Below, in pieces: positions 4,338 through 18,138 of a stretch of DNA of 64,000 bases. The notes below the pieces were generated by a model. The model searched no databases and was not told where the DNA came from. It saw only the letters and a program-made list of their open reading frames with translations. Source of the stretch: Salinicoccus carnicancri Crm (GTDB taxonomy: Bacteria; Bacillota; Bacilli; Staphylococcales; Salinicoccaceae); assembly GCF_000330705.1 (NCBI RefSeq), contig NZ_ANAM01000008.1, positions 496,001-560,000 on the forward strand, given 5' to 3'. How positions within the stretch are numbered: the stretch's first letter is position 1; each line of letters begins with the position of its first letter. A program made the translations under genes and the position numbers.

Positions 4338-4612
4338 TTATCCTTTGACCACTTTAACATAGACGGTTCTCCTCCGCGGGCCATCAAACTCTGCGAAGTA
4401 TGTGCTCTGCCATGTGCCATAGATCACTTCGCCATTTTCCACAATCAGCGTCTCACTCGCGCCCACGAGCGATGATTTCATATGGGAGTCTGAATTACCT
4501 TCGGCGTGCCGGTACGCCTCTTTGTTGTCGAAAGTGTCATTCATTCCGTGGACCAGGTCCCGCACGACATCCGGATCTGCATTCTCATTGATTGTGATGC
4601 CAGCAGTGGTAT
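4338..4612 (-). pseudogene. yjbQ: yjbQ, 3' part, cut off by the mobile element
   Basis: This encodes the last ~90 residues of a YjbQ/UPF0047 protein (secondary thiamine-phosphate synthase family): 'TTAGITINENADPDVVR', then 'HAEGNSDSHMKSSLVG' with the metal-binding histidines, 'GTWQ' and the terminal 'RTVYVKVVKG'. The first 43 residues lie 12.9 kb away at 17529-17653. In the present state the fragment has no promoter or ribosome site of its own; a GTG at 4565 could be misread as a start. A TGA lies just upstream in the element. Confidence 0.9.
4609..4612. other. Left attachment junction
   Basis: Host side CCAGCAGTG then GTAT then element side CAGATGATCA. With the right junction it predicts an empty site whose coding strand reads CCGCATACCACTGCTGG, keeping the yjbQ frame as TPHTTAG. 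The 2-bp crossover lies within this 4-bp identity; which two bases cannot be told from one copy. Confidence 0.85.
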
Positions 4613-4654
4613 CAGATGATCACAAATACAGTCAATATAAAACACTAAAAAAGA

Positions 4655-4686
4655 GGAGCAAATGTCTCTACAGCTTTGCCCCCTCC
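4655..4686 (-). terminator. Terminator at the left end of the element
   Basis: Read on the minus strand, GGAGGGGGCAAA pairs with TTTGCTCC, followed by TCTTTTTT. It ends transcription of the gene at 4704 before the yjbQ remnant. Confidence 0.6.
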
Positions 4687-4703
4687 ACTTATCTACAACA
4701 TAT

Positions 4704-5678
4704 TCAATATCCCCTAATGACTTGTAGCCTCTGCCTGACTAGCCCAGTTGATATATTATGCTTGTCAGCTATCTCCTCAGTAGAAAAACCTGCAGTAGCA
4801 TCTGCTAAGATTTCCCTGCTTGTAACACCTATATTAGTCTTACCTGACAACCCTATCTGTTTGAGTCTGCTGTAAATTGAGTCCCTACTACACTTGTAAT
4901 AGATACAGATTTCTCTAGTGCTCATTCCTGACTCCTTAAGATCTTTTAACTCCTGCAGATCAATATCTAGTACTTTCTTAGGTCTCTTATCAGTCTCATC
5001 CTCCTCAGTAATGCCCTTTAACTCTTTAGCCTCCTCATTAAACTCATCTTGCAACTCTTTATGTAATGCCTGCTCCTCAGCAGTAAGATCAGCTACATCT
5101 GTAAGCTCCTCAGCTACATCAGTATTATCACTGTCTAACAATGTATTAACTCTATTATATGCAGTTCTGCAGACCTTAGCTATATCTGTCTTGCTGTAGC
5201 CTTTGTTAAACATATCATTAACTAGATCATACTGCTCCTCAGTCTCTAAATGCCTAAAATCATTTATCAGTTCTTTCTGCTCCCAGTGATTGAATAAGTA
5301 GGATGGTAAAAGATAGTTTCTATTAGTGAAGTATTTAACCCCAGTCACTTCTCCATCTACAATAATAGGCTGTGGGTAAAGCCTGCAGATCTTATTATCT
5401 TTGTTGATACCTATTTTCTGTGGTCTCTTAATAATGTTAAAAACCTGATCCAGTTGCTGATCTAACTGCTCCTGCTTGTGCTCATTATATTCTCTCTTAA
5501 TTATCCTCATACACTTTTTAAATGCCTTTTGATCAGTAATTTCATAATCTTTAGAAATGAATCTCCCCACAAGCTCAATAGTCCATGTTTTCTTTATTAA
5601 CAATTTCATCAAATATCTATCTGCAATCTTGGTATAGGTGCTATTGGTCAACTTTTGTTTTTCTCCCTTTTTCCTCAT
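4704..5678 (-). CDS. Protein with three helix-turn-helix motifs, unknown function
   Basis: A 324-residue protein. I see three HTH-like segments: 'KGYSKTDIAKVCRTAYNRV' near residue 175, 'SGMSTREICIYYKCSRDSIY' near 255, and 'AGFSTEEIADKHNISTGLV' near 295. An acidic linker rich in E and D (residues 190-240) joins the first to the others. The N-terminal half is basic and helical, without a recognised domain. Multiple HTH units suggest binding to a repeated DNA site, for example a replication origin or partition site, but this is inference. It is the last of four minus-strand genes that run away from the helicase-like gene. Confidence 0.75.
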   Translation of the reverse strand: MRKKGEKQKLTNSTYTKIADRYLMKLLIKKTWTIELVGRFISKDYEITDQKAFKKCMRIIKREYNEHKQEQLDQQLDQVFNIIKRPQKIGINKDNKICRLYPQPIIVDGEVTGVKYFTNRNYLLPSYLFNHWEQKELINDFRHLETEEQYDLVNDMFNKGYSKTDIAKVCRTAYNRVNTLLDSDNTDVAEELTDVADLTAEEQALHKELQDEFNEEAKELKGITEEDETDKRPKKVLDIDLQELKDLKESGMSTREICIYYKCSRDSIYSRLKQIGLSGKTNIGVTSREILADATAGFSTEEIADKHNISTGLVRQRLQVIRGY

Positions 5679-5737
5679 AGGTAACTCTCCCTTTCCCTTT
5701 GTCTTTTATGTTATCTCCCTACAGCTCTCTACTGTGT

Positions 5738-5929
5738 TTATAAGTTCTCCCTGTGCTCTGCCTTTGTCATGAACTCATTGAATATATTGGGTCTGATCTG
5801 CCCTGTAATAATGCCATTGATCAATAAAGGAGGTAGCTCCTCATACTCTGCACATATTTCTTTAAAGTCAGTACCTACAAAATAGAAACTGTACAAAATC
5901 TCTTTAACAGTGTAATCAGTCATTAACAT
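5738..5929 (-). CDS. Small unknown protein of the element
   Basis: A 63-residue soluble protein, 'MLMTDYTVKEILYSFYFVG...'. An AAAGGGATGG stretch upstream can serve as ribosome site. It has no cysteine pair, membrane segment or motif I recognise. It lies between two larger genes on the same strand, 59 bp before the HTH gene, with a terminator-like hairpin upstream at 5961-5980, so it probably has its own promoter or is coupled to the gene at 4704. Confidence 0.55.
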   Translation of the reverse strand: MLMTDYTVKEILYSFYFVGTDFKEICAEYEELPPLLINGIITGQIRPNIFNEFMTKAEHRENL

Positions 5930-5954
5930 TCATAACCATCCCTTTAGATAATAG

Positions 5955-5980
5955 AAAAAACAGAGGTACTAATGCCCCTG
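5955..5980 (-). terminator. Terminator of the coiled-coil gene
   Basis: CAGAGG (5961-5966) / CCCCTG (5975-5980), followed on the minus strand by TTTTTT. The loop sequence resembles that of the hairpin at 11288-11309. Confidence 0.65.
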
Positions 5981-6021
5981 CCTTTTATGTGAAATCTATA
6001 TAAACAGCGATATGTCAAAGT

Positions 6022-6633
6022 TTAGATAAATACTTTATGATCCCTTAAAATCTGCTGATCAAATATTTCTTTTAGATGAGGGTACAGCCCTCTCTTGCCT
6101 AAGTGATAAGATTTGTACCTAGGCTCTCCCTGTTTTACAATCTTGTAATCAAGCAAGATATTGTTACAGTAGCCAAATGCTTGATTTATTGTAGTAGCAT
6201 GATCCTTTAAATATTTACTGTCCTCTACTACTGTTGAGATTGAAACAGTTTTAGTAACTGCCTGCTCAGTTTCATTAAATACTTTTGTAGCCTCTTTATG
6301 CTTTTCAAATACTTTTGTAACTACATCCTCTATCTGCTTAATGCCTTTTGCTTTAAGTGTCTTACTCAACTCCTCAGCAAGTTTAAGATCTTGCTTAAGC
6401 TCCTCCTGATTCTTTGTGAGTTCCTTTAGAGCATCCATGCTTGTTACATCTGCCTTATTAGCCTCTACAGCCTCAATCTGTTCTGTAAGTGTTTCTAGCT
6501 CCTTATTATGCTCATCATTAATCTGTTCTACCTTTTCAATTACATTGTTTACCTCAGCTTTTACCTCTTTTAGGTCTTCTACTTTCTCATCTAATGCTAC
6601 CTTAGCCATTTCTACACTTGTTACTTTCTCCAT
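6022..6633 (-). CDS. Coiled-coil protein of the element
   Basis: A 203-residue protein whose residues ~10-125 form a long heptad-rich, highly charged coiled coil ('DEKVEDLKEVKAEVNNVIEK', 'LKQDLKLAEELSKTLKAKG'). The C-terminal 70 residues look globular and basic, ending 'LYPHLKEIFDQQILRDHKVF'. AAAGGAG lies 11 nt before the ATG. It starts 20 bp after the stop of the gene at 6654, so the two are probably one operon. I do not recognise a family; structural, partner-binding or DNA-organising roles are all possible. Confidence 0.7.
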   Translation of the reverse strand: MEKVTSVEMAKVALDEKVEDLKEVKAEVNNVIEKVEQINDEHNKELETLTEQIEAVEANKADVTSMDALKELTKNQEELKQDLKLAEELSKTLKAKGIKQIEDVVTKVFEKHKEATKVFNETEQAVTKTVSISTVVEDSKYLKDHATTINQAFGYCNNILLDYKIVKQGEPRYKSYHLGKRGLYPHLKEIFDQQILRDHKVFI

Positions 6634-6653
6634 TTAGTCATTTCTCCTTTTAT

Positions 6654-7658
6654 TTAGTCTTTGCTATTAGTCTCTGCTAACAACATTTTGCTTATTTCTT
6701 CTTGTGTATCTAGTATTACCTGCAGTTCTTTATCATGCTTGCTAACTCCTGCCTTAACCTCTACTGGATCAACCTCAGGTGTAGCAGTGGGCTTTAGTGC
6801 TGTGCCTCTATTTTTAACTATCTCTTTAGCCTCTTTTTTATCAAATACAACAGAAAGTTTCTTTACTAGCTCTGCATCTGATAGCTTAAGTCTTTCCTTT
6901 TTCTGTACATTCTTGCCCTTTGCATACAATCTAACTTCTCTTTTATTTAATGGTCTAGCTGTTCCTCTTTCTATCCTGTCCAATCTTAATGCCTCCTGCA
7001 TTAGCTTTAGATCCGGATGCTCTACCTGATTATATAAACTCATAAACAACATGCCATAATAAAGAGCCTCAAGCTTTAACCCCTCATCTGATATGGTTGT
7101 ATCTACAAACTTCTGTCTACTTCCCTTTGTTTCTACAGTACCTAAATCTAGCAGGGTACTTTCATTTAACATTACGCCTAGATCTCTTGTATCTAAGTAC
7201 TTGCTGATACTGCCTAACTCATTTTTAATAAACCATCTCAGAGATCTCTGTTTCATTGCTTGCAGATTCATAACCTCATTAGAGGACATCCCTGTAAAAT
7301 CTATGAGTAACTGCTGTTGTCTGACAGATGCATCAGGTCTAATCGCCTGCTCTATCAGATTCTGCACAAACTTATCAAGTTGCTCCTCAGTCATTGATCT
7401 GTTTAGACTTGTAGGATCATACTCAGGTGCTTTAATCTCCTCCTGTGTCTTTAACTCCTGATCATACAACTCTCTATGCTCTGATATGTATGTTCTTAAA
7501 AGTCTACTGGAGAAACCAAGCTCCTTGCTGTATGCCTCCTGTGTAGTGCCAAAATGCACCTTACAATAGGCATGTAAAAGAGCAGTCTGCTCTGATCCAG
7601 TGGGTTTATTTTCTTCTATAAACTCCTGAAACTCTGTTTTCTGTGTTTCCTCTGCCAT
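6654..7658 (-). CDS. Unknown protein with an N-terminal helix-turn-helix
   Basis: A 334-residue soluble protein. Residues ~30-60, 'HFGTTQEAYSKELGFSSRLL', read like a helix-turn-helix; the middle (90-230) is helical and the C-terminal part is lysine-rich ('GKNVQKKERLKLSDAEL') before an acidic tail. GAGGGGAAAG lies before the ATG at 7658. It is the first gene of the minus-strand cluster and faces away from the helicase-like gene, with a 306-bp shared control region. A role in replication or its control is plausible but unproven. Confidence 0.7.
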   Translation of the reverse strand: MAEETQKTEFQEFIEENKPTGSEQTALLHAYCKVHFGTTQEAYSKELGFSSRLLRTYISEHRELYDQELKTQEEIKAPEYDPTSLNRSMTEEQLDKFVQNLIEQAIRPDASVRQQQLLIDFTGMSSNEVMNLQAMKQRSLRWFIKNELGSISKYLDTRDLGVMLNESTLLDLGTVETKGSRQKFVDTTISDEGLKLEALYYGMLFMSLYNQVEHPDLKLMQEALRLDRIERGTARPLNKREVRLYAKGKNVQKKERLKLSDAELVKKLSVVFDKKEAKEIVKNRGTALKPTATPEVDPVEVKAGVSKHDKELQVILDTQEEISKMLLAETNSKD

Positions 7659-7964
7659 ACTATTACTTTCCCCTCTCTTAATCTCTGTATTATTCTCATT
7701 AATTGCCCCTGTTGCTACCTATTTCATTTCTCTACTATATAGGGCTACTAGATGAGGCTTATCCCAGTAGTTACTTAGGATAATATTACACTAACCTCTG
7801 TAGACTCTCTATTGATATCCTGATTAACTTCTGTCATATAAATCTCCTCCCTTTAGCTCTATATTTAGAAATGCTGTTTTAACTGTGACTGCCCTCATGT
7901 CACAGCTTTAAAAAGTCTCCTAACAATAATAATGAAAGATATTATATTTTAAGGAGACTACACA
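7659..7964. promoter_or_regulatory. Divergent control region inside the element
   Basis: This 306-bp gap separates two diverging transcription units. It is A+T-rich with several TATAAT-like and TTAACT-like words (for example ATTATATTTT just before the AAGGAG of the helicase gene). I see no convincing operator repeat and no small gene. Promoters for both directions must lie here. Confidence 0.5.
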
Positions 7965-9248
7965 TTGGAAAATAGAAATTTAAAGGTAAAAGTAATTGAT
8001 AGTATTATGGGATCAGGTAAAACTAGTTGGGCTATCCAGTATATGAATGGGTCTCATGAATCTGAGAAATTTATTTACATTACTCCATTTCTTAATGAGG
8101 TTGAAAGAGTCAAAAGAGAGGTAACAAATAAGGAGTTTGTAGAGCCTGAGAAATTTAAAGGCAAGAATAAGAGAGAACATTTTAAAACTCTACTTTCACA
8201 GGGCAAAAACATCTGTAGTACTCACGCTTTATTTAAAAAAGCAGATGAGGCTCTTATAGATTTAATTCAAGTTCAGGGCTATACCTTAATACTAGATGAG
8301 GTCATGAATGTAATTGAACAGGAGCCTATTACTAAAGAGGATTTACAGCACCTGACACAACCTAATCATAATGGGGAGCCATTACTGTATGTAAAACCTG
8401 ATGGTACTTGTAGATGGACTAAAAAGGACTATAAGGGTAGGTTTGAAAGCATCAAGGAGTTAGCAGAGAGCAATAATTTAATGATTCATAATAACACAGC
8501 TCTGTACTGGACTATGCCTGTAAGAGCATTTAGAGCTTTTGAGCAGGTTATTGTAATGACTTATATGTTTGATGGTCAGCTACAGAAATACTACTATGAC
8601 ATGCATGATGTGGATTACTACTACAAAGCTATTAAATTAGATCCTGAGGATAACAGATATAAACTAATCAATTATGTAGATCACACTGCAGAGGACAGGG
8701 AGCACCTGAGGGAGCTTATTAATATCCATTATTCAAAGTTAAATGATATTGGTAAAGGATACCACGCTTTCAGCTCTACTAAGTTAGATAAGTATGCTAA
8801 TGATTCTGCTTTTATTGAGCTTAAAGAGAGAGTTAAGAAAGATGCTTACAATTTTTACAGAAACAAAATAAAGGCATCTGCTAAAGATGTTATGTGGACT
8901 ACTATAAAGGGAGAGAATGATAGCATTAAAAAAGCTTTGGCACCTCATGGACTCACTAGAGAATACAATGAACAGCCTAATAAATTTGTGGAGGTCACAG
9001 CTAGGGCTACTAATGACTACAAGAATAAGACCACTTGCATTTATTTAGCTAACAGATACCTTAATCCAATGTTAAAGCAATTTGTAGAAGATGGAGGGGC
9101 TAAGGTAGATCAAGATAAATTTGCATTGTCTGAGTTATTACAATGGATTTTCAGGTCTAGAATTAGAGTAAATCAGCCCATTGATATTTATATTCCCTCT
9201 AGTAGAATGAGGAGACTGTTAGAGCAATATCTTAATAATGAAATATAA
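7965..9248 (+). CDS. SF2 helicase-like / origin-binding-type P-loop ATPase
   Basis: A 427-residue protein with a Walker A motif at the N-terminus, 'DSIMGSGKTSWAIQ' (residues 12-25), then 'YITPFLNEVERVK' (motif Ia-like), 'STHALF', and a Walker B/DExx-like 'LILDEVMNVIEQ' near residue 107. The C-terminal half has 'VTARATNDYKN' and 'LLQWIFRSRIR', compatible with helicase motifs V and VI. This layout resembles phage and plasmid origin-binding or DEAD-like helicases. The start is TTG at 7965, 8 nt after AAGGAG. It is the only large plus-strand gene in the element and is followed by 2.2 kb without genes, which could be its target. Replication is an inference. Confidence 0.75.
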   Translation: MENRNLKVKVIDSIMGSGKTSWAIQYMNGSHESEKFIYITPFLNEVERVKREVTNKEFVEPEKFKGKNKREHFKTLLSQGKNICSTHALFKKADEALIDLIQVQGYTLILDEVMNVIEQEPITKEDLQHLTQPNHNGEPLLYVKPDGTCRWTKKDYKGRFESIKELAESNNLMIHNNTALYWTMPVRAFRAFEQVIVMTYMFDGQLQKYYYDMHDVDYYYKAIKLDPEDNRYKLINYVDHTAEDREHLRELINIHYSKLNDIGKGYHAFSSTKLDKYANDSAFIELKERVKKDAYNFYRNKIKASAKDVMWTTIKGENDSIKKALAPHGLTREYNEQPNKFVEVTARATNDYKNKTTCIYLANRYLNPMLKQFVEDGGAKVDQDKFALSELLQWIFRSRIRVNQPIDIYIPSSRMRRLLEQYLNNEI

Positions 9249-11446
9249 ATGGATTATAATTAATATGATGCCTCTGCTGTGCACTACAGTAGGGGTATTA
9301 TTACAAATAGCTGAAACCCTTGATATAGCTGACTTACTCACTCCACTGAGTAAAACCTTTACAAAACCCTATAGTGGCGGGTCTTCAGACCCCCCTCCCT
9401 TATAATAACAGTATACAGACTGAGTAACTTTTTAGCAGTAAAGACAGCTATATATTCCAGTCGCTAAAGCTCCTTACATAGCTCAGGCATTACCTGCCCT
9501 CGCCCTACCCTCTTAATTAACTGCTGTAATATCTTCTACAATATAGGCAGGTTTATATTTAGGTGGGGGCATGAGCTTTAGCTCAGGCTAGGTTTTAGAT
9601 GCTCTTAGGTCTTTGCACTATAACAGTACCTCAGCAAATACTTTAATATCAGGTAGCTACTTAGCCTTAGAAGTATAATCCTTTATGCTATGTTTTTTGT
9701 GGTCTACTATGTAGACTGTTCTTTCTTCTTTTTTGTGTCACTACCTGTTATTTACTGCTTAGCTCTCAGTAATAGCAGGTACTTTTTTTATGTCTTCTAC
9801 TCCATACTGTAGTAAAGATCTGCTACTGTATTTTACATATAATTTAATATACTTATCTCCCTGTTAGTGCTGTTAATTCAGTTACTGGCAGGTTATTTTT
9901 GTATACTCTGTGAGGTTAGATATTACTACTACAGGTACTGCTAGTTACACAGGGGTTACTGAAATAAGGGGAGGGGGAGGTATATAACTGTAGGGCGATT
10001 GTGAGGAGCATTAGCTTACACAGTAGGTTACATTAGATTACATGGTAAACAGCCCAAGAAACATCAGGAGGGTCTGCCACTGCCATTAGTGAAATATTTC
10101 ATAGGTGTAGCTATTATGTAAAGAGTAAACGCTTGACACAATAATATTTATAGCATATTCCTGCCCCTGCTCCTGCAGTTTCCTTAAAGGAATACATAAG
10201 CCTGATATGATCTACAATATCATTCTGAGTCAGGTACAGTACTACTAATTAAAACCTAAGAGATATAAGGGCTGTAAGTGTTAGGGTATTATTTTGAAAA
10301 TAAAATGGCTGTAAGTACTGTTGTAGAGCCTTTTCTCATTTTGATATATAGGGCTATTAATTAAGGGGGAGGGGGCTAGGTAGGTACTGAGCAAGTACTG
10401 AGCAATCTCTTACTCTACAGCTAAGACACAAGGAGAGGGCTTATATATTGTGGGGCTACAGCAGGGACTGTAACTAACAGCAGGGCTAAGCTCCTGATAC
10501 ATCAGGCAGGTACTGGACTCACTGCAGAGCACTGTAGCTAACAGCAGGAGCTACTACTGTACTAATGAGAGGGCTAAAGCTATAGAAGTGTGTAGATATA
10601 TATATAGATATGAGCACTGCAATATACATAGATATTGTAGCTACCATTTTGAAACTAACTAATGAGACTTTACTAAGCTGATAGAATCAAGGCAGTAACT
10701 TAACTATCAATAACATTACTTATTGAGACAGTAAGAGTTCTGTACTAATCCAGTAACAGTAACAATAAAAATAATGATGATAAGTTAAGTTAGCTAAATG
10801 TAATAGTCTTTGCTCAGCTCTCTACTGATCTGCTAATACTTTTAATTAATTGATTGTAGACTAACAGAAATAATACTTGTGCAAGCTAATATAAGCTATT
10901 CTGACAAACTTTAATATAAATCTAACGCCTTTATATTAATCACTTTCAGATGCTCTAAATTAGCCTCACAGAACAGCCTCATATTGATACAGTTATAGTT
11001 ATCAGAGTAAAGATAGCATAATCTATCTAGCATGGGGGTATGGGAGGGGGCAGACCCTATATATAGGAGCATCTTGTGCTGAAATTATTTCTTTTCCATT
11101 TTTTACAGCTCCTGAGGAAACTAGAGCACCATAGAGCAAGTACTATAGACTAAGTAGCACTACAGAGCCTCACTAATATTATTGTAGATACACAGACCAC
11201 ATAGTGAGCCCCCCTTACTTAAACAGCCTTACTATAAAAAATATTTCTAAGTCCTAAAATTACAGATCAGCAGACAACATAAAAAAAGCAGAGACTATAA
11301 TGTCCCTGCTCTGATACTAAACTTATTCTAATTATTACATGTAAAATCTTATTATCTAATTTTTGGTATTACCAATGAAAATAGTGTGACTTCTATTAGA
11401 GTAGACACTTTAATAAGTATATTTCTATAATTCCTTAACAAAATTT
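9249..11446. other. 2.2-kb gene-free block of the element
   Basis: No credible reading frame on either strand; stops, especially TAG, are dense in all frames. Contents seen: hairpin GGGTCT/AGACCC (9379-9392), GTCTAC/GTAGAC near 9702-9716, TTCCTT/AAGGAA near 10180; plus-strand G-rich tracts at 9968-9980, 10365-10384 and 11034-11050; a tandem 11-mer GTACTGAGCAA (10384-10405); a repeat ACTGTARCTAACAGCAGG at 10467-10484 and 10531-10548; and a TA-rich stretch at 10594-10612. CG is nearly absent here too. Candidates: replication origin, a large structured RNA, or a decayed gene region. I cannot decide. Confidence 0.7.
11281..11309 (-). terminator. Terminator beyond the PIN gene
   Basis: GCAGAGAC (11288-11295) / GTCCCTGC (11302-11309), followed on the minus strand by seven T. 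It lies about 140 nt after the stop of the PIN gene. Confidence 0.7.
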
Positions 11447-11449
11447 ACT

Positions 11450-12802
11450 TTAAAATGGTAATCCATTATTTTTATAATAAATTTCCATTTCATTTATTAA
11501 CTCTAAAAGAATAATTGCTCTTTTAACTATATCTTCAGGTAATGAATTTAATTTTTCTAAGAATTTATTTGCTAAGTCAACATAACCCTCTATAGCAATG
11601 TCTGCAGACAAATCTTTAGCTGTTAGTTCTAGGTAAGGCATTACTCTATCAATAATCTGTAAAACTGCCTCATTATAATGATATATTTCATCATTATTAG
11701 CATGTAAAGCATTCTTTATTAGTACTTTACTTTGTTCTCTTTCATTTATTGGTAAAAACTCTAGTATTTCTTTTAATGATATATTTGACTTATCAATAAT
11801 ATTTCTATAATTTATATTGTCTAGATTTTTATACGCCTTGTTTTTAACAATCTTTTTATTATCTGCTTTTGTCTCTTCTGCTGTTCTAATGCTTTCTAAT
11901 TCAGCAGATACCTCGCTGAGCTGTGTCGCATTAAAATCTATACCTAAATATTTACTCGCATATTCTATAAAGCGTACTGTCTTATACATATGAAAATTTT
12001 GACCTGTTTCATTAAAAAATTCTTGAATTAGGTTAGGGTGAGGTCCTTTAGTCTCCCCTTTCTTAATATGCCACCAGTCCTCTTTATTATCTTCTGTAAT
12101 AAATATCACTGGTTTAGCATTTTCACACGCTTTAACTTTATCAATTATTTGTTTCCATACTATTAAATCGCCATATTGGAGTTGATACTTGATACCATCA
12201 TAAGACCTATACTCTTTTTTATCAGTTTTATCTTTAAAACCAGGAGGGACTTTAAGAGGATACCTTTCTCTCCCATCTTCCTCAATTTTATTTATCTCAT
12301 CTTGATTATATGACTCTCCAACATTATTATTCAATAATTCTAATATCCTGTCATGTATTTCATTTGAGTTAGGTAAATCATTTATTTCTTCTTCTACTTT
12401 TTCTTCTAACTCTTTATTAGATTCATCTAAATTTTTAATAAAAAAATTAAAATCCTCAGTCCTAATAAAAGGATTATCATCTTGAGCATTTTGTAAAAAA
12501 GATTTCGCCTCATCTATTAGACCTTTCAAATTTTTTTCTATTTTTTCATATCCCTCTTTTTGATTATACATGTTATCCTCATAGTTAAAGAAATACTCTA
12601 GGGCAACTTGATGCGGTATCCATAATCTATTTTTTTCTTTGAATTTTTGTAAAATTTCTAATAGTCGCCCTGCACTCTGTTTTGAGGGATATTTATAAAA
12701 ATATAATAAAATATTTGTATCCACCACTATAATTGATTCATCCAACAAGTCCTCATATTCTTTTTTTGTATATTTAATAAATCCTTTAAATTGTTCTAAC
12801 AT
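11450..12802 (-). CDS. PIN-like domain protein (PIN_8/DUF4935 type), putative defence effector
   Basis: A 450-residue protein with an N-terminal PIN-like nuclease domain: 'SIIVVDTNILLYFYKYP' carries the first catalytic aspartate, an all-helical insert follows, and 'PVIFITEDNKEDWWHIKKG' (residues ~215-235) supplies the late acidic residues. The C-terminal ~180 residues are helical and unassigned. ATG 12802 is preceded by AGGGGG; an in-frame ATG at 12820 overlaps nothing useful. PIN domains cut RNA, and this large type is found in phage-defence islands. It starts 20 bp after the DUF4145 gene ends, so the two are one operon. The pair is more A+T-rich yet richer in CG than the rest of the element. 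Confidence 0.8.
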   Translation of the reverse strand: MLEQFKGFIKYTKKEYEDLLDESIIVVDTNILLYFYKYPSKQSAGRLLEILQKFKEKNRLWIPHQVALEYFFNYEDNMYNQKEGYEKIEKNLKGLIDEAKSFLQNAQDDNPFIRTEDFNFFIKNLDESNKELEEKVEEEINDLPNSNEIHDRILELLNNNVGESYNQDEINKIEEDGRERYPLKVPPGFKDKTDKKEYRSYDGIKYQLQYGDLIVWKQIIDKVKACENAKPVIFITEDNKEDWWHIKKGETKGPHPNLIQEFFNETGQNFHMYKTVRFIEYASKYLGIDFNATQLSEVSAELESIRTAEETKADNKKIVKNKAYKNLDNINYRNIIDKSNISLKEILEFLPINEREQSKVLIKNALHANNDEIYHYNEAVLQIIDRVMPYLELTAKDLSADIAIEGYVDLANKFLEKLNSLPEDIVKRAIILLELINEMEIYYKNNGLPF

Positions 12803-12822
12803 TTTAAGCCCCCTAAACATTT

Positions 12823-13497
12823 TTAATTTTTCATTTCATCTCTATATTTCTGTGATTTTATTTTCATAGCAATAAAATAGACAGTAAGATCTATCAGATT
12901 TTTTAGATCATTAATGTCTGTCCCCTCCCATTTTCTTGTATAATGAGTTTCATCATTCCCCAACCATGTAGCTCTTTCTGCCATTTGTTGTATATCTGAA
13001 TCACTTATATAATCATTTATACATTTTTGAATTGAATGAATTGCTTTAACAGTTTCTGCATCCTCAGGATGTTCACTTATTATGTAATCTTTTAATAAAA
13101 ATTCTAGAGATTTCCTATAAGCACCTCCACAAATAAGATTAAGTTCCGCTTGTTCTGCATTAAATGCTTGATTATATATCTTTATAAATTCTGGAGATAA
13201 CTCATTAATTTCTTTAGGAAATTCTTCATAACTTTTACTCTGGGGGTAAAGATATGATAATTTAAATTTATTAGTATCGCCTGGTTGTCTTATGGTACTC
13301 ATAGTATACACAGCAAAAAATAGTGATTCACATTCTCCATTTGGACATTTACATAAAAGCTCATGAAATCTATACTGTTTTTCATGTATAAGAATATATT
13401 TAGGTATTATTAAATTCTTACACAAGGGGCATTTATCAGGTTTTTTTTCCAAGTAATTTAAATTTTTACTATCCTCAATCTGTCTAATGTATCCCAT
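12823..13497 (-). CDS. DUF4145-type protein with zinc ribbon, putative partner of the PIN protein
   Basis: A 224-residue protein. The N-terminus has paired cysteines 'CPLCKNL' and 'CKCPNGEC', a likely zinc ribbon. The C-terminal ~120 residues match the DUF4145 pattern: 'AEQAELNLICGGAYRKSLEF', 'AIHSIQKCINDYI', then 'ATWLGNDETHYTRKW' and a final helix 'DLTVYFIAMKIK'. DUF4145 proteins are common in restriction and abortive-infection loci and are related to HEPN-like helical folds. It is the first gene of the two-gene operon with the PIN protein and has its own promoter region at 13498-13560. A sensor or RNA-binding role is inference. Confidence 0.75.
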   Translation of the reverse strand: MGYIRQIEDSKNLNYLEKKPDKCPLCKNLIIPKYILIHEKQYRFHELLCKCPNGECESLFFAVYTMSTIRQPGDTNKFKLSYLYPQSKSYEEFPKEINELSPEFIKIYNQAFNAEQAELNLICGGAYRKSLEFLLKDYIISEHPEDAETVKAIHSIQKCINDYISDSDIQQMAERATWLGNDETHYTRKWEGTDINDLKNLIDLTVYFIAMKIKSQKYRDEMKN

Positions 13498-13560
13498 TTA
13501 ATAGCACATATCCTTTCATTCACAAAATCAGAATCATCATACAAATTATACCATATAAAA

Positions 13561-13587
13561 AAGAGCAGTATTCTGTTACCTGCTCTT
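13561..13587 (-). terminator. Terminator between the unknown genes and the DUF4145/PIN operon
   Basis: AAGAGCAG (13561-13568) / CTGCTCTT (13580-13587), followed on the minus strand by TTTT. It ends the transcript of the genes at 13650-14570. Confidence 0.7.
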
Positions 13588-13649
13588 AATTAACTAAACA
13601 ATTATAAGTATTTTCAGTAAATCTAACAATAATATTTCAATTGCATCAC

Positions 13650-14033
13650 TTAATATCTTTGATATAAGTAACTGTGCACGCTGTATAATACTGGTTTAAC
13701 CCTTGATTTTTCATTCTTAAATTGTATACTTTGCTTATAATATTCATTGTAAAAAGTTGATTCAGTATTAGCTACATCCATGACAAAATACATCTCAATA
13801 GGCTCTAGCTCAAAAGCATCTGATATTTTCAGCCCATTTCTTAAAGCTCTTTGATAACTATTTTTATCTATATTCCCTGATAAGCCATTAAAAATATCTC
13901 CATCTAACTTTAAATAAGAGCCTTTAATCAAACTACTTTTAAGTGTATTCCTAAACTCTGTGAAATCATTACCTGATTTAAGAGAATCAGTTTTAAACCT
14001 ATAGCCCTGTAATTTCAAATTTTTCATTGCCAT
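13650..14033 (-). CDS. Unknown 127-residue protein of the element
   Basis: A basic, soluble protein, 'MAMKNLKLQGYRFKTDSLKS...', with a middle segment 'YQRALRNGLKISDAFELEPI' that may be a helix-turn-helix-like turn, and a C-terminus rich in tyrosine ('VLYSVHSYLYQRY'). AGAGGGG lies before the ATG. It follows the gene at 14095 by 61 bp on the same strand and precedes a terminator, so these are probably cotranscribed. I recognise no family. Confidence 0.6.
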   Translation of the reverse strand: MAMKNLKLQGYRFKTDSLKSGNDFTEFRNTLKSSLIKGSYLKLDGDIFNGLSGNIDKNSYQRALRNGLKISDAFELEPIEMYFVMDVANTESTFYNEYYKQSIQFKNEKSRVKPVLYSVHSYLYQRY

Positions 14034-14094
14034 GTATCCCCTCTACTTTTTTCAATAACTAAATGTAATTCTTTGATCTAGTCATTTAACAATA

Positions 14095-14466
14095 TTATAC
14101 CTCTACTGCTCCAAATAAATTTAAATTTTTTTGTAACTCTCTCCCCCACTTATGCCAATCTACAAACTGTTCTAATTCATATACAAGTTCTAGGCTAAAA
14201 CTCCCCATATCAGCAACAGCTCCATCTTTCTGATCTTTGTAATACTGATAAGCTACTTCTGATAATTCAGTAATTCCTTGATATAGAATAAACTGATCAT
14301 TTGTTACAATTTCTAATGTCTCACTAATTTTATAGTTACCACTATCAAGAATAGCATTAATAAACAATAATTCATGATCTGTAAACTCTTTACTTCTAAA
14401 CTTTCTAACTTTAGAATTAGCTATTTCTTTTTTCAGTTCAGTGTAATCTGTTTTGTTATTAGTCAT
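14095..14466 (-). CDS. Unknown 123-residue acidic protein of the element
   Basis: An acidic helical protein, 'MTNNKTDYTELKKEIANSKV...', with 'ELEQFVDWHKWGRELQKNL' near the C-terminus. Its start codon lies 2 nt after the stop of the 33-residue membrane peptide, with AAAGGGAG before it, so translation is probably coupled. No motif is recognised. Part of the small-gene cluster downstream of the resolvase. Confidence 0.6.
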   Translation of the reverse strand: MTNNKTDYTELKKEIANSKVRKFRSKEFTDHELLFINAILDSGNYKISETLEIVTNDQFILYQGITELSEVAYQYYKDQKDGAVADMGSFSLELVYELEQFVDWHKWGRELQKNLNLFGAVEV

Positions 14467-14468
14467 GT

Positions 14469-14570
14469 TTAAATTCTCCCTTTAATAAATGTACTTTCTA
14501 ATAGGTTCATAAGTATTAAAGCAGGTGCTGAGGCTATGAATGTAAGTATTACAAGATTATCTATATCCAT
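14469..14570 (-). CDS. 33-residue hydrophobic peptide overlapping the resolvase end
   Basis: The frame encodes MDIDNLVILTFIASAPALIL and then 'MNLLESTFIKGRI', one clear membrane helix (residues 5-24). A very strong AGGGGGGAGG ribosome site sits 8 nt before its ATG, inside the last codons of the resolvase gene. Stop and next start are 2 nt apart. The size and layout recall small toxic or regulatory membrane peptides, but no antitoxin is evident. Confidence 0.5.
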   Translation of the reverse strand: MDIDNLVILTFIASAPALILMNLLESTFIKGRI

Positions 14571-15141
14571 TTAAACAGCCTCCCCCCTCAGTCTTTAGCT
14601 TTCTGTATATGGTAGCCCTTGAAATTCCAGTAATATCTGAGATCTGTTTTACTGTATGCTCTCCCTTGCTGTACAGTTCCAAAGCATGAGCCACTTTATT
14701 ACTATTAGCTCTAGGTCTGCCAAACTGCACTCCTTTAGACTGAGCTACAGCTACACCCTCCTTAACTCTCTGATGTATCTGTTTTCTCTCCATCTCAGCA
14801 AGTGCTCCCATAACTGTAAGTAGAAAATCTGACATTATGCTCTCTCCTGAAATATCTAACCATGAATCAGAGAGAGACTTAAGGGAGGCATCTTTATTCT
14901 TAATGATCTCCACTATCTCTAGCAAGTCCTTTGTAGATCTACTGAGCCTATCAATGCTAACAATATATACAGTGTCTCCCTCTTGTAGCTGATCTAGTAG
15001 CTCATTGAGCTGAGGTCTATCCCTCTTACTACCTGAGATCCTGTCTCTGTAAATGTAATCACAGTGCTCTAGTTGTTGCTCCTGCCTATCAAACTTTTGC
15101 GACTCATTGAGGGTACTGATTCTCATGTAGCCATAGTTCAT
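14557..15141 (-). CDS. Small serine recombinase (resolvase/invertase family)
   Basis: A 194-residue recombinase of the Tn3-resolvase/Hin family. The catalytic serine is in 'MNYGYMRIST' (Ser9); 'VSIDRLSRSTKDL' holds the conserved arginines; 'GALAEMERKQIHQRVKEGV' is the long E helix; the C-terminal 'HTVKQISDITGISRATIYR' is the DNA-binding HTH. Full length. It is the second serine recombinase of the element and is too small to be the integrase. Likely roles are dimer resolution, or inversion of a segment, but no pair of inverted sites was spotted. Confidence 0.92.
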   Translation of the reverse strand: MNYGYMRISTLNESQKFDRQEQQLEHCDYIYRDRISGSKRDRPQLNELLDQLQEGDTVYIVSIDRLSRSTKDLLEIVEIIKNKDASLKSLSDSWLDISGESIMSDFLLTVMGALAEMERKQIHQRVKEGVAVAQSKGVQFGRPRANSNKVAHALELYSKGEHTVKQISDITGISRATIYRKLKTEGGGCLNGYR

Positions 15142-15269
15142 ATTTTGTTATCTCCTTTCATTAGTAGTATCATTTTGATACCTGTATAAGTAATATACCA
15201 CTGTGAAATACTGGTATCAATATAATACCACTATATATTTTGGAGATTTTACACTTTGGTAAAAAATAA

Positions 15270-15296
15270 AAAAGACAGGGCTGTTTAGCCCTGCCT
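15270..15296 (-). terminator. Terminator of the winged-helix gene
   Basis: AGACAGGGCT / AGCCCTGCCT with loop GTTT (15273-15296), followed on the minus strand by TTTTTT. Confidence 0.8.
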
Positions 15297-15315
15297 AATC
15301 TACAATAACTATATA

Positions 15316-15591
15316 TTAATATCTATTATCTTTTCTAAACTCATCAGGTATATTCAACCTATACTCAGATGGTAAGCCCTTGTTTAGTTTAATCTCTAGT
15401 ATTCCTAATTTTTCTAGTTCTTGCATCCCTCTACTTGTGGTAGTCTTAGCCATTCCTAGCCTGTCCTTTAAGTCATTAAATGAGGTCTGTACTTCTCCTG
15501 TATCCTCTGAAAGGCTGTACATTCCTAAGAATAGCCTTAGTGTAGATGGTTTCAATTTTATCAGTAAATTATATAAGGTTACTTTGTCCAT
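15316..15591 (-). CDS. Winged-helix DNA-binding protein
   Basis: A 91-residue protein of winged-helix type: 'LRLFLGMYSLSEDTGEVQTS', recognition helix 'DRLGMAKTTTSRGMQELEKL', then a wing 'GILEIKLNKGLPSEYRLNIP'. This resembles the small MarR/RepL-like regulators of phages and plasmids. It lies between the two recombinase genes on the same strand, with its own terminator. Possible roles are repressor of the element or recombination directionality factor for the integrase; the latter is worth testing because no other candidate sits next to the integrase. Confidence 0.7.
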   Translation of the reverse strand: MDKVTLYNLLIKLKPSTLRLFLGMYSLSEDTGEVQTSFNDLKDRLGMAKTTTSRGMQELEKLGILEIKLNKGLPSEYRLNIPDEFRKDNRY

Positions 15592-15906
15592 TCCCTACAT
15601 ACCTCTCCCATGTCTCTCTACATCATTCTCATTTATTAAATCAACATAATTATATCACAGATTAAAAAGAGGCTACAGCCTTAGCCATAGCCTCAAATGA
15701 GAATAAATAAACTATCATTAGAGAGGAAAAGTATTAAAGTATGATGCTGTTGTAGGTGTATCTAGTACTATAGTTAGAATAACAACCCTAACTGTGACAG
15801 AGGCTGTTAGATACTGTTTAGATGCTGTGAGTGCCATTTAAAGAGGAGTTAACTACTTGATATGAGTGACTTACCCAGTTATAACTCTCTATGTGTCTCT
15901 GTGTAG
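15592..15906. other. Gap downstream of the integrase gene
   Basis: 315 bp without a gene. It contains the integrase terminator (15664-15694) and presumably the promoter of the winged-helix gene. Nothing else stands out. Confidence 0.5.
15664..15694 (-). terminator. Terminator of the integrase gene
   Basis: GAGGCTA / TAGCCTC stem (15669-15694), followed on the minus strand by TTTTT. Confidence 0.7.
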
Positions 15907-17433
15907 CTACTCAGCCCATGTTATTGTCAGTGTAGGCTTTACTTTCTGCCCTTGCTCATCTTTCTGATACTCTACTTTAGATATAATGCTCTTTAGGAAG
16001 TTATTTATATTTGTGACCAACTCTTTTTTATCCTTATCTGTTAAATCAGCATCCTCTTTAATCTGTTTAGATGTTCTAATATTTTTGATGTTATCTACAA
16101 GGTATTTAATTCTCTGTTCATAAGTGGAGGTATCTAAGTTTATAAGACTCTCCTTATAACTCTCTACTACATCTTTTAAGTGATCTTTCTCCTCTTCTAT
16201 ACCCTGCTGTCTCTCCTTAAAGGTGTTTTTATCTATCAATCCATCTACAGCCAAAGAAAGTAGATTTTCCTTTTTATCCTCTAGCTTTGCTAAAGATTTC
16301 TCAGCATCTTTAATTTTATCATGATACTTTTTAACAATAGTTGTATTGTCATGGGTCTTTATCTTAGACAGTTCTTTCTCTACTTCCACACTGTACTTCT
16401 TAATTTCTTCTAGTATAGCCTTTTCTAATTTTTCCAAAGAGTGCCCATAGTTTTTACAACTTTTATTAGTACATTTCTTTAATATATTCGCTACCCTGTA
16501 CTCTCCTGTCTCTTTGTAATTCTTATACTTAGGGTTAGCTGTAGAATTAACTAGCATCCTATTACTGCATTTAGTACATATAAATAGCCCTGAGGTTATA
16601 AAGCTAGTAGTAGATCTAGTTCTATTGTAACTCTTAGTCCTCTGCTGTACTAAATCTGAGATAAGCTGATACTCTGATACCTTAATTAGAGGCTCATGAG
16701 CATCCTTAACCTCTACAGATCCCTGTGCATTTTTGTAGTTAAGGATGCCCCTATACACAGGATTATTAATCATTCTAGAAACTGAGTTCATTCTAAAGAG
16801 CCTGTGATCTCTAGTCCTGTAGCCCTCTGCATTTAATTTCTTGCAAGCTGATGGATAGCTCATGCCTTGTAGCATCAAATCTACAGCATACCTATACACC
16901 TTGCTCTCCTCCTCATCAGGAGTAAGCCTGCCCTCTGAGTCTCTGATGTACCCATAAGGTGTAGGATTGCCTTGCCACTTACCTGCTCTAGCACTATTTA
17001 ACTTTCCTACTAATAATCTCTTTCTGATCTGCCTGTACTCAGCATCTGCAATAACTGAGCCAAAGGAAAATAACAGCTTATTGTTATCCTCTCTCAGATC
17101 ATACTCTGCAGTAGGAGTAATGAATATAGGGCAGTGCATCTCTAAGGTCTCTGCCAATGCCATTAAAGTAGCTCCTGACCTACTGAGCCTATCAATATCA
17201 TGAGCAAATACTGCATCATACTCTCCTGCTTTAATATCCTTAAGCATAATATTGTACTGCTCTCTATCTGAGTCCATTGAGGATGCTATGCCATCACTGT
17301 ATATCACATAGCTATAGCCCTGACTTTCAGCGATTCCCATTAAAGTAGTCCTGTGATTACTTAAGCTATCCTCATCCTCCCCTTTCTCTCTACTGAGCCT
17401 CAGATAAATACATGCTTTTTTACTGTTATCCAC
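15907..17433 (-). CDS. Large serine recombinase, integrase of the element
   Basis: A 508-residue phage/ICE-type large serine integrase. Resolvase domain: 'ACIYLRLSREKGEDEDS' with catalytic Ser14, 'FAHDIDRLSRSGATLM', 'SFGSVIADAEYRQIRKRL'. Recombinase domain: 'PYGYIRDSEGRLTPDEEE' and 'RMNSVSRMINNPVYRGI'. A zinc ribbon has 'CTKCSNRM' and 'KKCTNKSCKNYGH', and a long coiled coil follows (residues ~365-470). The start is GTG at 17433, 7 nt after GGAGG; the ATG at 17466 lies upstream of that ribosome site. It ends at the right side of the element, next to the attachment site in yjbQ, and explains the insertion. Confidence 0.95.
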   Translation of the reverse strand: MDNSKKACIYLRLSREKGEDEDSLSNHRTTLMGIAESQGYSYVIYSDGIASSMDSDREQYNIMLKDIKAGEYDAVFAHDIDRLSRSGATLMALAETLEMHCPIFITPTAEYDLREDNNKLLFSFGSVIADAEYRQIRKRLLVGKLNSARAGKWQGNPTPYGYIRDSEGRLTPDEEESKVYRYAVDLMLQGMSYPSACKKLNAEGYRTRDHRLFRMNSVSRMINNPVYRGILNYKNAQGSVEVKDAHEPLIKVSEYQLISDLVQQRTKSYNRTRSTTSFITSGLFICTKCSNRMLVNSTANPKYKNYKETGEYRVANILKKCTNKSCKNYGHSLEKLEKAILEEIKKYSVEVEKELSKIKTHDNTTIVKKYHDKIKDAEKSLAKLEDKKENLLSLAVDGLIDKNTFKERQQGIEEEKDHLKDVVESYKESLINLDTSTYEQRIKYLVDNIKNIRTSKQIKEDADLTDKDKKELVTNINNFLKSIISKVEYQKDEQGQKVKPTLTITWAE

Positions 17434-17509
17434 TCTGCAAACCTCCAATAATAGTACTCTAAACACAGCTACCTCTAGTGCTCAGTACTATCATTAGAGA
17501 TAACTGTAT

Positions 17510-17653
17510 TTATGTGACTACTACTGTATGCGGTGTGAAGACAACCACCACACCGCCTTTCAGCTTGGATTCCGCGAGCGCTTCCCGCACAAGTGAATCG
17601 ATGTTGACGAAAGTCTCCCGCCGGTCGGTTTCCACTTCATACTTGAATAGCAT
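17510..17653 (-). pseudogene. yjbQ: yjbQ, 5' part, cut off by the mobile element
   Basis: Starts with ATG at 17653 behind an AAAGGTGA ribosome site and encodes MLFKYEVETDRRETFVNIDS through '...VVVVFTPHT' (43 residues), then four residues from the element (VVVT) and a TAA. The intact family is about 130-140 residues; adding the ~90 residues at 4338-4612 gives ~132. The promoter remains here, so a short dead-end peptide is expected while the element is present. Confidence 0.9.
17526..17529. other. Right attachment junction
   Basis: Element side GACTACTACT then GTAT then host GCGGTGTGAAG. Joining the element sides predicts a circular attP core of GACTACTACTGTATCAGATG on the plus strand. The integrase gene begins about 90 bp away. 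Confidence 0.85.
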
Positions 17654-17721
17654 TTTATCACCTTTAATCTTCAGTATTGTGGGTACTATACTACTAGAGA
17701 TTGATGAAAGGAGATATCGGA

Positions 17722-18138
17722 ATGCCTTATACAACGAATGATTATCCGGATTCACTGAAAAACATGGAAAAGCTGGAACGGAGAAAGGCGATTGATATCA
17801 TCAATGCACTGCTCGAAGAAGGATATGACGATAACCGGGCCATCCCGATTGGGATCGAACAGGCCGAAGATTGGTATAAAGGTGCAACAGCTGAAGAATT
17901 AAAGGAACTTGAGCGTAAAGATATCACACAGCATGAAAACGATCCGGGTACCCAGGGCGGCAGGATAGCTGATAACGACGTCGAAGTCTTCTACGAAGAT
18001 GACGAATGGAAAGTACAGACAAAAGGGGCGAAACGCCCGAGCAGCACGTACGCCACGAAGGATGATGCCGTGAAGCGGGCAAAAGAGATTGCCGACAATC
18101 GCGGCGCGGAAGTCATCACCCATAAAAAGGATGACTAG
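17722..18138 (+). CDS. DUF2188-type (YdaT-like) protein
   Basis: A 138-residue acidic soluble protein. The N-terminal half ('MPYTTNDYPDSLKNMEKLER', 'EEGYDDNRAIPIGIEQAEDW') resembles ChaB-like/YdaT N-terminal regions. The C-terminal half ('VEVFYEDDEWKVQTKGAKRP', 'TYATKDDAVKRAKEIADNRG', 'ITHKKDD') is a DUF2188 domain. AAAGGAG lies 8 nt before ATG 17722; an upstream in-frame ATG at 17701 overlaps the ribosome site. Proteins of this type are stress-associated in bacilli but their biochemical role is unknown. Divergent from yjbQ and convergent with mutT. Confidence 0.75.
   Translation: MPYTTNDYPDSLKNMEKLERRKAIDIINALLEEGYDDNRAIPIGIEQAEDWYKGATAEELKELERKDITQHENDPGTQGGRIADNDVEVFYEDDEWKVQTKGAKRPSSTYATKDDAVKRAKEIADNRGAEVITHKKDD

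Follow-up and report, generated by a model that had tools for sequence, protein, structure and literature searches.

Near-complete loss of HCGD and several other short words from a 12.9-kb integrative element of Salinicoccus carnicancri, a possible trace of restriction-type selection

The DNA analysed here (the window) is a stretch of 64,000 nucleotides from Salinicoccus carnicancri Crm (contig NZ_ANAM01000008.1, positions 496,001 to 560,000), and it contains a mobile element that, judged from its sequence, is a 12.9-kb integrative element of the large-serine-recombinase kind. This element is almost devoid of the word HCGD, that is, of CG dinucleotides that do not overlap GC. The words GAAGS, GGCC and GCWGC are missing altogether, and CCAGV is missing outside a block of cargo genes. 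We hold it marginally probable that selection purged the DNA of HCGD, GAAGS, CCAGV, GGCC, GCWGC and probably GGTGA, acting through several restriction-type systems in earlier hosts. The argument depends on the following features:

4609..17529, no strand: whole integrated element, with GTAT at both ends and joined flanks that match an uninterrupted site in sister genomes
7014..7015, no strand: the sole HCGD of the element (CCGG), from a context listing and count
7965..9248, plus strand: yonV, encoding a YonV-like helicase of SPbeta type (phrog_2467, E 1.9e-72)
9249..11446, no strand: 2.2-kb block free of open reading frames (ORFs), with word avoidance as in the coding core
11450..12820, minus strand: cargo gene with a PIN_8 domain (PF18476, E 8e-52; phrog_9788)
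12823..13497, minus strand: cargo gene, weakly DUF4145-like (PF13643, E 0.005, below cut-off)

Between positions 4613 and 17525 there are 28 CG dinucleotides, an observed/expected (O/E) CpG ratio of 0.08. Without the cargo block (11447-13500) the count is 16 (O/E 0.05), made up of 6 in 4613-9248 (0.04), 6 in 9249-11446 (0.08) and 4 in 13501-17525 (0.04), and the cargo block itself holds 12 (0.33). An initial annotation of this DNA had arrived at exactly these sub-counts (6, 6 and 4, about 16 in 10.9 kb) and had placed the element boundaries correctly to within 4 bp, the length of the terminal GTAT. The host DNA on both sides, which it had described as full of CG, has ratios of 1.16 (left) and 1.06 (right), and the element approaches neither these values nor 0.5, the limits that had been set for the claim. 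CG is the most depleted dinucleotide of the element. Since GC reaches an O/E of 1.27 (AG 1.44, CT 1.39), low G+C is not the cause of the deficit, as had been argued from the frequency of GC dinucleotides. The remark that arginine codons are nearly all AGA or AGG was also accurate, with 81 AGA, 43 AGG and no CGN codons in the ten core genes.

The word that is avoided is HCGD rather than CG. All but one of the 28 surviving CGs overlap GC (as CGC or GCG), and HCGD occurs once where 252 copies are expected from base composition; given 28 CGs, so low a number has a P of 5e-13. When the proteins and the element's own CG-poor codon usage were kept and the non-coding bases were shuffled, the expectation was still about 126 (2 vs about 252 as this shuffle counts them, on both strands). 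By block, HCGD numbers 1, 0, 0 and 0 in the left core, ORF-free block, cargo and right core, against 26.8, 48.1, 8.5 and 18.9 expected. The cargo block separates the two words most clearly: CGC and GCG are as frequent as expected there (12 vs 9.5), and HCGD is absent, both against composition (0 vs 27.4; PIN_8 gene 0 vs 17.7, DUF4145-like gene 0 vs 9.6) and when only the synonymous codons of the cargo were shuffled (0 vs 8.5). Relatives of the cargo genes in other yonV loci contain 5, 13 and 11 copies, with 9.8, 14.8 and 14.7 expected. The earlier statement that CG is nearly absent thus stands, with the amendment that the avoided word is HCGD and that the cargo block shares its zero; GAAGS, CCAGV (outside the cargo), GGCC and GCWGC had been overlooked.

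These further words were evaluated mainly against 400 null sequences in which proteins, codon usage and non-coding dinucleotides were preserved. Over the whole element, GAAGS (0 vs 37.2), GGCC (0 vs 11.3) and GCWGC (0 vs 9.5) are absent on both strands, and none of the 400 nulls is as low as the element for any of them. CCAG words depend on the next base: CCAGC (0 vs 10.3), CCAGA (2 vs 15.9) and CCAGG (2 vs 8.9) are scarce, so that CCAGV as a whole stands at 4 vs about 35 (4 vs 30.4 in a context test), and CCAGT is normal (20 vs 16.4; 20 vs 14.3 in the context test), as are GATC (48 vs 42.5) and AGCT (82 vs 82.6). A similarly sharp rule applies to GAAG, for which the context test gave 25 vs 26.0 for AGAAGW and 8 vs about 75 for the remaining contexts together. 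GGTGA (1 vs 10.5) has probably been purged as well. GAAGS is absent from every block (14.2 expected in the left core, 5.2 in the ORF-free block, 4.9 in the cargo and 9.7 in the right core), and CCAGV is absent from the left core, ORF-free block and right core (10.0, 5.7 and 8.4 expected). GGCC, GCWGC and GAAGS are thus missing on both strands beyond what composition and codon usage account for, which is the pattern of restriction-site avoidance, and GGCC, GCNGC/GCWGC, CCTTC and CCAGA are listed enzyme sites (Biopython list, with CG-containing sites left out of the ranking).

As the deficits extend to both strands and into the ORF-free block, the selection appears to be on DNA, as the initial annotation had proposed when it set DNA against protein. 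Selection on RNA or translation, through codon usage or an RNA-cutting enzyme, could account for the exclusive use of AGA and AGG in the core genes and for their unusual choice of glutamate and glutamine codons (GAG over GAA, 157:65; CAG over CAA, 74:31). However, CG is also depleted at codon junctions (5 vs 69 expected), the ORF-free block is without HCGD (0 vs 48), GAAGS and CCAGV, and GAAG and its complement CTTC are both low on the sense strand of the core genes (15 vs 45.2 and 2 vs 13.1), all of which makes this explanation very improbable.

An equally remote candidate is CpG methylation followed by deamination in a former host, which would convert CG to TG or CA and would fit the position of CG as the most depleted dinucleotide. 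The initial annotation had suggested that a rise in TpG and CpA would indicate such decay. There is no such rise (TpG 1.11, CpA 0.95; 1.01 and 1.03 in the HxxD context), and methylation decay is therefore disfavoured. Of 64 positions with CG in 6 or more of 36 homologues, one is still CG in the element, and 29% of the others are TG or CA, compared with a homologue mean of 36% (standard deviation 0.09); at the 16 positions with CG in at least 12 homologues, the figures are 19% for the element and 18% for the homologues. In addition, CGC and GCG are spared in the cargo, and the other missing words contain no CG. The element thus shares very low CpG with DNA that has undergone 5-methyl-CpG decay and differs from it in all these respects. 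Of the causes named in the initial annotation, the best fit is escape from CG-containing restriction sites; methylation with deamination is disfavoured, and a low-CpG donor becomes the main rival.

Under this rival, the element would have its oligonucleotide usage from an unsampled donor with low CpG, whether clostridium-like or not, in which mutation, repair and codon bias produced that usage without any restriction. For its evaluation, other yonV loci were used as a reference, namely the best 80 of 150 confirmed in genome_contigs and the best 80 of 214 confirmed in viral_contigs, together with loci from phages and other scans. Genes of at least 1100 bp entered the yonV gene comparison (two shorter matches were dropped), and loci under 8 kb (except L053), loci of the own genome and loci after L171 were excluded from the locus-level comparison. 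The resulting 165 yonV genes are not independent, since many of the viral loci are Bacillus prophages that hardly differ from one another, and in some cases two loci lie on one contig (L093/L112, L006/L126); L169 and L170 have identical values. The trinucleotide accent was compared with that of 11 other, chosen sequences.

Several observations speak for such a donor. Core parts A, B and C, coding and non-coding, have one trinucleotide accent in common (r 0.70-0.92), graded biases accompany the zeros, and the accent nearest to that of the coding core among the 11 sequences is found in the Clostridium celatum yonV locus (L060; r 0.61 with A, 0.69 with C), in which GGCC is also rare (O/E 0.09). 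Windows of 3 kb in clostridial yonV loci fall to a CpG O/E of 0.07 (L060) and 0.11 (L005), so low CpG alone is not unique. In the host genome, the lowest HCGD O/E across 432 windows of 2 kb was 0.48 (15 further genome stretches; two all-N stretches, L184 and L191, were dropped).

On the other side, L060 and L005 are not low in GAAG (1.56 and 1.52), in GCWGC (1.72 and 1.65) or in the HCGD share of CG (0.89 and 0.94), and a preference for GAG over GAA and CAG over CAA is not known as a clostridial trait, which counts against a clostridial accent. Every one of the 165 other yonV genes has at least four GAAG, whereas the element yonV has one; their HCGD O/E is 0.72 at the median and never below 0.18, compared with 0 in the element yonV, and none lacks all of GGCC, GCWGC, GAAGS and CCAGV. 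Among 158 other loci, the lowest O/E values are 0.82 for GAAG (element 0.31) and 0.60 for GAAGS (element 0), and for the HCGD share of CG, taken relative to expectation, the minimum is 0.55 (L053), compared with 0.05 in the element. GGCC is zero in 6 of these 158 loci. In the Sporosarcina aquimarina yonV locus (L028), both GGCC and GCWGC are zero over 11.9 kb, where about 26 and 14 sites are expected (53 and 28 with palindromes counted on both strands); this locus would be a precedent for multi-site loss and could represent a second, milder purge.

The cargo block is most informative here. A mutational or codon bias should be graded, and it should travel with the accent. Yet AGAAGW is normal where GAAGS is zero, and the cargo, whose accent differs from that of the core (r 0.33-0.58) and in which CCAGV is normal, has the same zeros for HCGD and GAAGS, the two words with enough expected copies to count there. 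Since these zeros are neither graded nor tied to the accent, selection is preferred with moderate confidence, and an explanation by donor accent, although possible, is rather unlikely.

The purge by restriction-type systems might be envisaged as follows. In earlier hosts, each unprotected copy of an avoided word would have left the DNA open to a cutting system as it entered. GGCC and GCWGC would have been subject to orthodox Type II restriction, GAAG- and CCAG-type words to further cutting systems, and the CG core would have been cut unless GC overlaps it, with symmetric recognition and CGD on both strands. As no methyltransferase was recognised in the element, escape would have come about through the loss of sites. 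The cargo would have joined late, after the CCAG pressure and still under HCGD and GAAG pressure, and entry into the present host would be recent enough for the signature to persist. A bolder proposal, which we consider doubtful, is that a DNA-cutting defence not yet described exists in the donor lineage, recognising a CG core alone, symmetrically, and silent where GC overlaps, so that the element would be a fossil record of it and of GAAG- and CCAG-type systems as well.

The present host was considered as the agent and is the less likely one, because its genome has no PF00145 match and a single PF01555 match; PF00145 is present in 9 of 33 genomes of the host family. Host DNA contains many of the avoided words, which shows only that the composition of the element differs from that of the host. 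Because a host would methylate its own sites, these copies do not decide whether the host was the agent. With the present host less likely and the composition unlike that of the host, the element appears to have come recently from a lineage not yet sampled.

Several points weigh against a purge by restriction, in addition to the clostridial likenesses given above. A two-base recognition core would be unusual. We know of no enzyme that the HCGD context rule fits. No enzyme of HCGD specificity was found here or in a literature search over the openings of abstracts, in which neither HCGD avoidance nor a nuclease acting on unmodified CG was noticed and in which the word HCGD itself appeared in unrelated senses (a protein family; animal DNA methylation). 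The core is poor in CGC and GCG too (15 vs 108), the cargo has CCAGV at its expected frequency (4 vs 3.7), and GGCC and GCWGC, at zero in every block, have expectations of just 0.1 to 3.9 per block, so that their zeros count for the element as a whole and are uninformative in the cargo. The core has a strong graded accent (CAG 484 vs 351, GAA 334 vs 464, CCA 172 vs 222) that site loss leaves unexplained. The words were discovered by scanning the same sequence that was later used for the tests; single P values are therefore descriptive, and the evidence lies in how large the deficits are. GDGCHC, which we take to be a specificity of the methyltransferases of the SPbeta group (H2I), is not depleted (14 vs 10.3). 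Finally, GAAGS and CCAGV are asymmetric, whereas published avoidance is mostly of orthodox Type II sites and is weaker in temperate phages (PMC6286503).

The set of targets of the SPbeta multispecific methyltransferases was tried as a match for the missing words and rejected: GGCC and GCWGC agree, CCWGG agrees in part (2 vs 8.9) and GDGCHC fails. GGCC is presumably also a target of the H2I-group enzymes, and the element avoids it. Compared with the multispecific C5-methyltransferases of Bacillus phages (M.H2I, M.BatI), the element resembles their specificity in avoiding GCWGC, the target of M.BatI, a phage-borne methyltransferase (PMC8936443), and differs in having no methyltransferase that was found and in the normal frequency of GDGCHC. 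Modified rather than unmodified sites could also have been the target, if Type IV enzymes in recipients killed copies that a donor methyltransferase had methylated at CG, GCNGC or GGCC, so that these sites were lost. Bacillus has both a GCWGC/GCSGC methyltransferase (PMC8936443) and an enzyme that cuts methyl-GCNGC (PMC4926085). However, this route would require a methyltransferase of HCGD specificity, of which none was identified, and avoidance of this type is weak in published data (PMC6286503), which makes it improbable.

Complete or nearly complete site loss is reported for roughly one viral genome in ten (PMC6286503), and small broad-host-range plasmids adapt by losing sites, whereas large ones carry methyltransferases (PMC10359461). 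The element is like these phages and small plasmids in lacking short words on both strands, two of which, GGCC and GCWGC, are listed Type II sites. Unlike them, it is an integrated element of 13 kb that has lost several words completely and together; some of the words are asymmetric, and the CG core follows a context rule. Discussions of site loss usually concern one palindromic site at a time and chiefly non-temperate phages (PMC6286503); in this element, five word families are at or near zero together, with sharp context rules and down to a two-base core. If selection was indeed responsible, the missing words would read out the defence repertoire of unsampled hosts and would predict a searchable HCGD specificity, and the list could be used to find such defence systems. 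A cargo with another accent and the same HCGD and GAAGS zeros offers a way to tell a purge from mutational bias.

The class of the element follows from its ends and its insertion site. GTAT is common to both ends (4609-4612 and 17526-17529) and is likely to be the crossover core. The joined flanks match an uninterrupted site in two sister genomes (97% over 88 nt in G008, 92% over 87 nt in G011) and match over 54-57 nt in four more genomes of the genus; no match was present in 5 of the 12 genus genomes, the own genome counted among the 12. A recombinase gene at one end, a single site and a short common core characterise the element as integrative, its mobility being predicted from sequence. The interrupted host gene is yjbQ-like (UPF0047), and the element has, on this evidence, been inserted into it by the large serine recombinase:

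4338..4565, minus strand: 3' part of the interrupted yjbQ-like gene (Pfam PF01894, E 1.5e-21, profile positions 43-117)
17510..17755, minus strand: 5' part of the yjbQ-like gene, with an ORF that extends into the element end (PF01894 positions 1-27, E 0.032, below cut-off; supported by the uninterrupted sites of the sister genomes)

No plasmid DNA match to the element was found. In addition to yonV and the cargo genes, the following genes are carried:

4704..5678, minus strand: 324-aa protein with several helix-turn-helix motifs (PF02796, E 7e-9)
5738..5929, minus strand: 63-aa ORF, no family match at E 0.01
6022..6633, minus strand: 203-aa coiled-coil protein, with weak coiled-coil-type matches only
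6654..7658, minus strand: 334-aa orphan protein without relatives
13650..14033, minus strand: 127-aa protein, no Pfam or PHROGs family at E 0.01 or better
14095..14466, minus strand: 123-aa protein, possibly an ArdA-like antirestriction protein (weak; PF07275, E 0.047, below cut-off)
14557..15141, minus strand: small serine resolvase (PF00239, E 5e-34)
15316..15591, minus strand: winged-helix protein, like the N-terminal part of phage replication initiators (phrog_391, E 2.5e-6; PF13730, E 1e-5)
15907..17466, minus strand: large serine recombinase, the presumed integrase (PF00239 and PF07508 above cut-off, zinc ribbon weak; phrog_95 integrase, E 1.4e-87)

Other matches to the recombinase at E 1e-40 or better in 398 genomes of the class have 28-33% identity, and close relatives were found neither in these genomes nor in a contig scan, which detects close relatives only. 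The 324-aa protein has no other match at E 1e-10 in the 398 genomes and none in a contig scan of the same reach, and the 334-aa protein is unmatched in phages, in the other 156 genomes of the order and in the close-relative scans of both contig sets. For the 123-aa protein, the sole plasmid match (E 0.5, 25% identity) is annotated as ArdA; a search of solved structures by sequence gave none, and its structure model (predicted local distance difference test score, pLDDT, 49) is too poor for a structure search, so that likeness to ArdA is a lead at most.

The YonV protein shares 38-42% identity with its counterparts in SPbeta-group Bacillus phages and, by alignment, up to 56% with a bacillus homologue (L012). 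Its structure model (pLDDT 92) has an XPD/DinG-like helicase fold, for which structure comparison gave a best Foldseek E of 4e-6 and a best Z of 17.6 (root-mean-square deviation 4.7 Å, 341 residues aligned). The element shares this homologue and a large serine recombinase with the SPbeta-group phages (Spbetavirus) and differs from them in its size of 13 kb, in a recombinase that is about 27% identical, in a CpG O/E of 0.08, compared with 0.69 in a 45-kb stretch of SPbeta, and in having no structural or packaging gene that was recognised. No head, tail or packaging genes were recognised in scans of 10 of the 12 listed ORFs against PHROGs; the resolvase and the DUF4145-like protein were scanned against Pfam only (the latter also against NCBIfam). 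The two structural-type PHROGs matches are weak, a minor head protein for the coiled-coil protein and a tape measure for the recombinase (both E 0.002). The arbitrium genes aimR and aimP did not turn up in the general family scans, and no search was aimed at them.

Relatives of the PIN_8 gene (L013, L120) and of the DUF4145-like gene (L034) lie at most 8 kb from yonV in three other loci; the DUF4145-like protein is 45% identical over 213 aa to a translated stretch in L034. Their presence near yonV elsewhere may indicate a recurrent cargo spot, perhaps for defence genes. Relatives of the small resolvase also lie near yonV in many loci, for example L014, L015, L018, L038 and L041 (30 tblastn matches), which suggests that the association of yonV with a resolvase is recurrent.

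The ORF-free block has no ORF of 60 aa or more. A reading of TAG as glutamine was rejected, since it gives open frames of at most 98 aa, and a known structured RNA was rejected as well, since no Rfam family exceeds its gathering score; two L20-leader matches, one in the block (11274-11356) and one elsewhere, fall far under that score. The first 1000 nt of the block are more stably folded than 20 shuffles (z -3.4), and the next 998 nt less markedly so (z -1.7). An origin or a large RNA is possible. ORF-free blocks of 1.7-2.6 kb follow yonV in 3 of 163 loci, namely in the window (9249-11446), in L135 (9216-11766) and in L139 (9222-10911); the median gap after yonV in the 163 loci is 212 bp.

The host DNA of the window has word deficits of another kind: positions 17756-64000 under-use CTNAG (54 vs 122-129), GGNCC (103 vs about 181) and GACCC (35 vs 66-88), which is possibly the mark of the host's own restriction systems.

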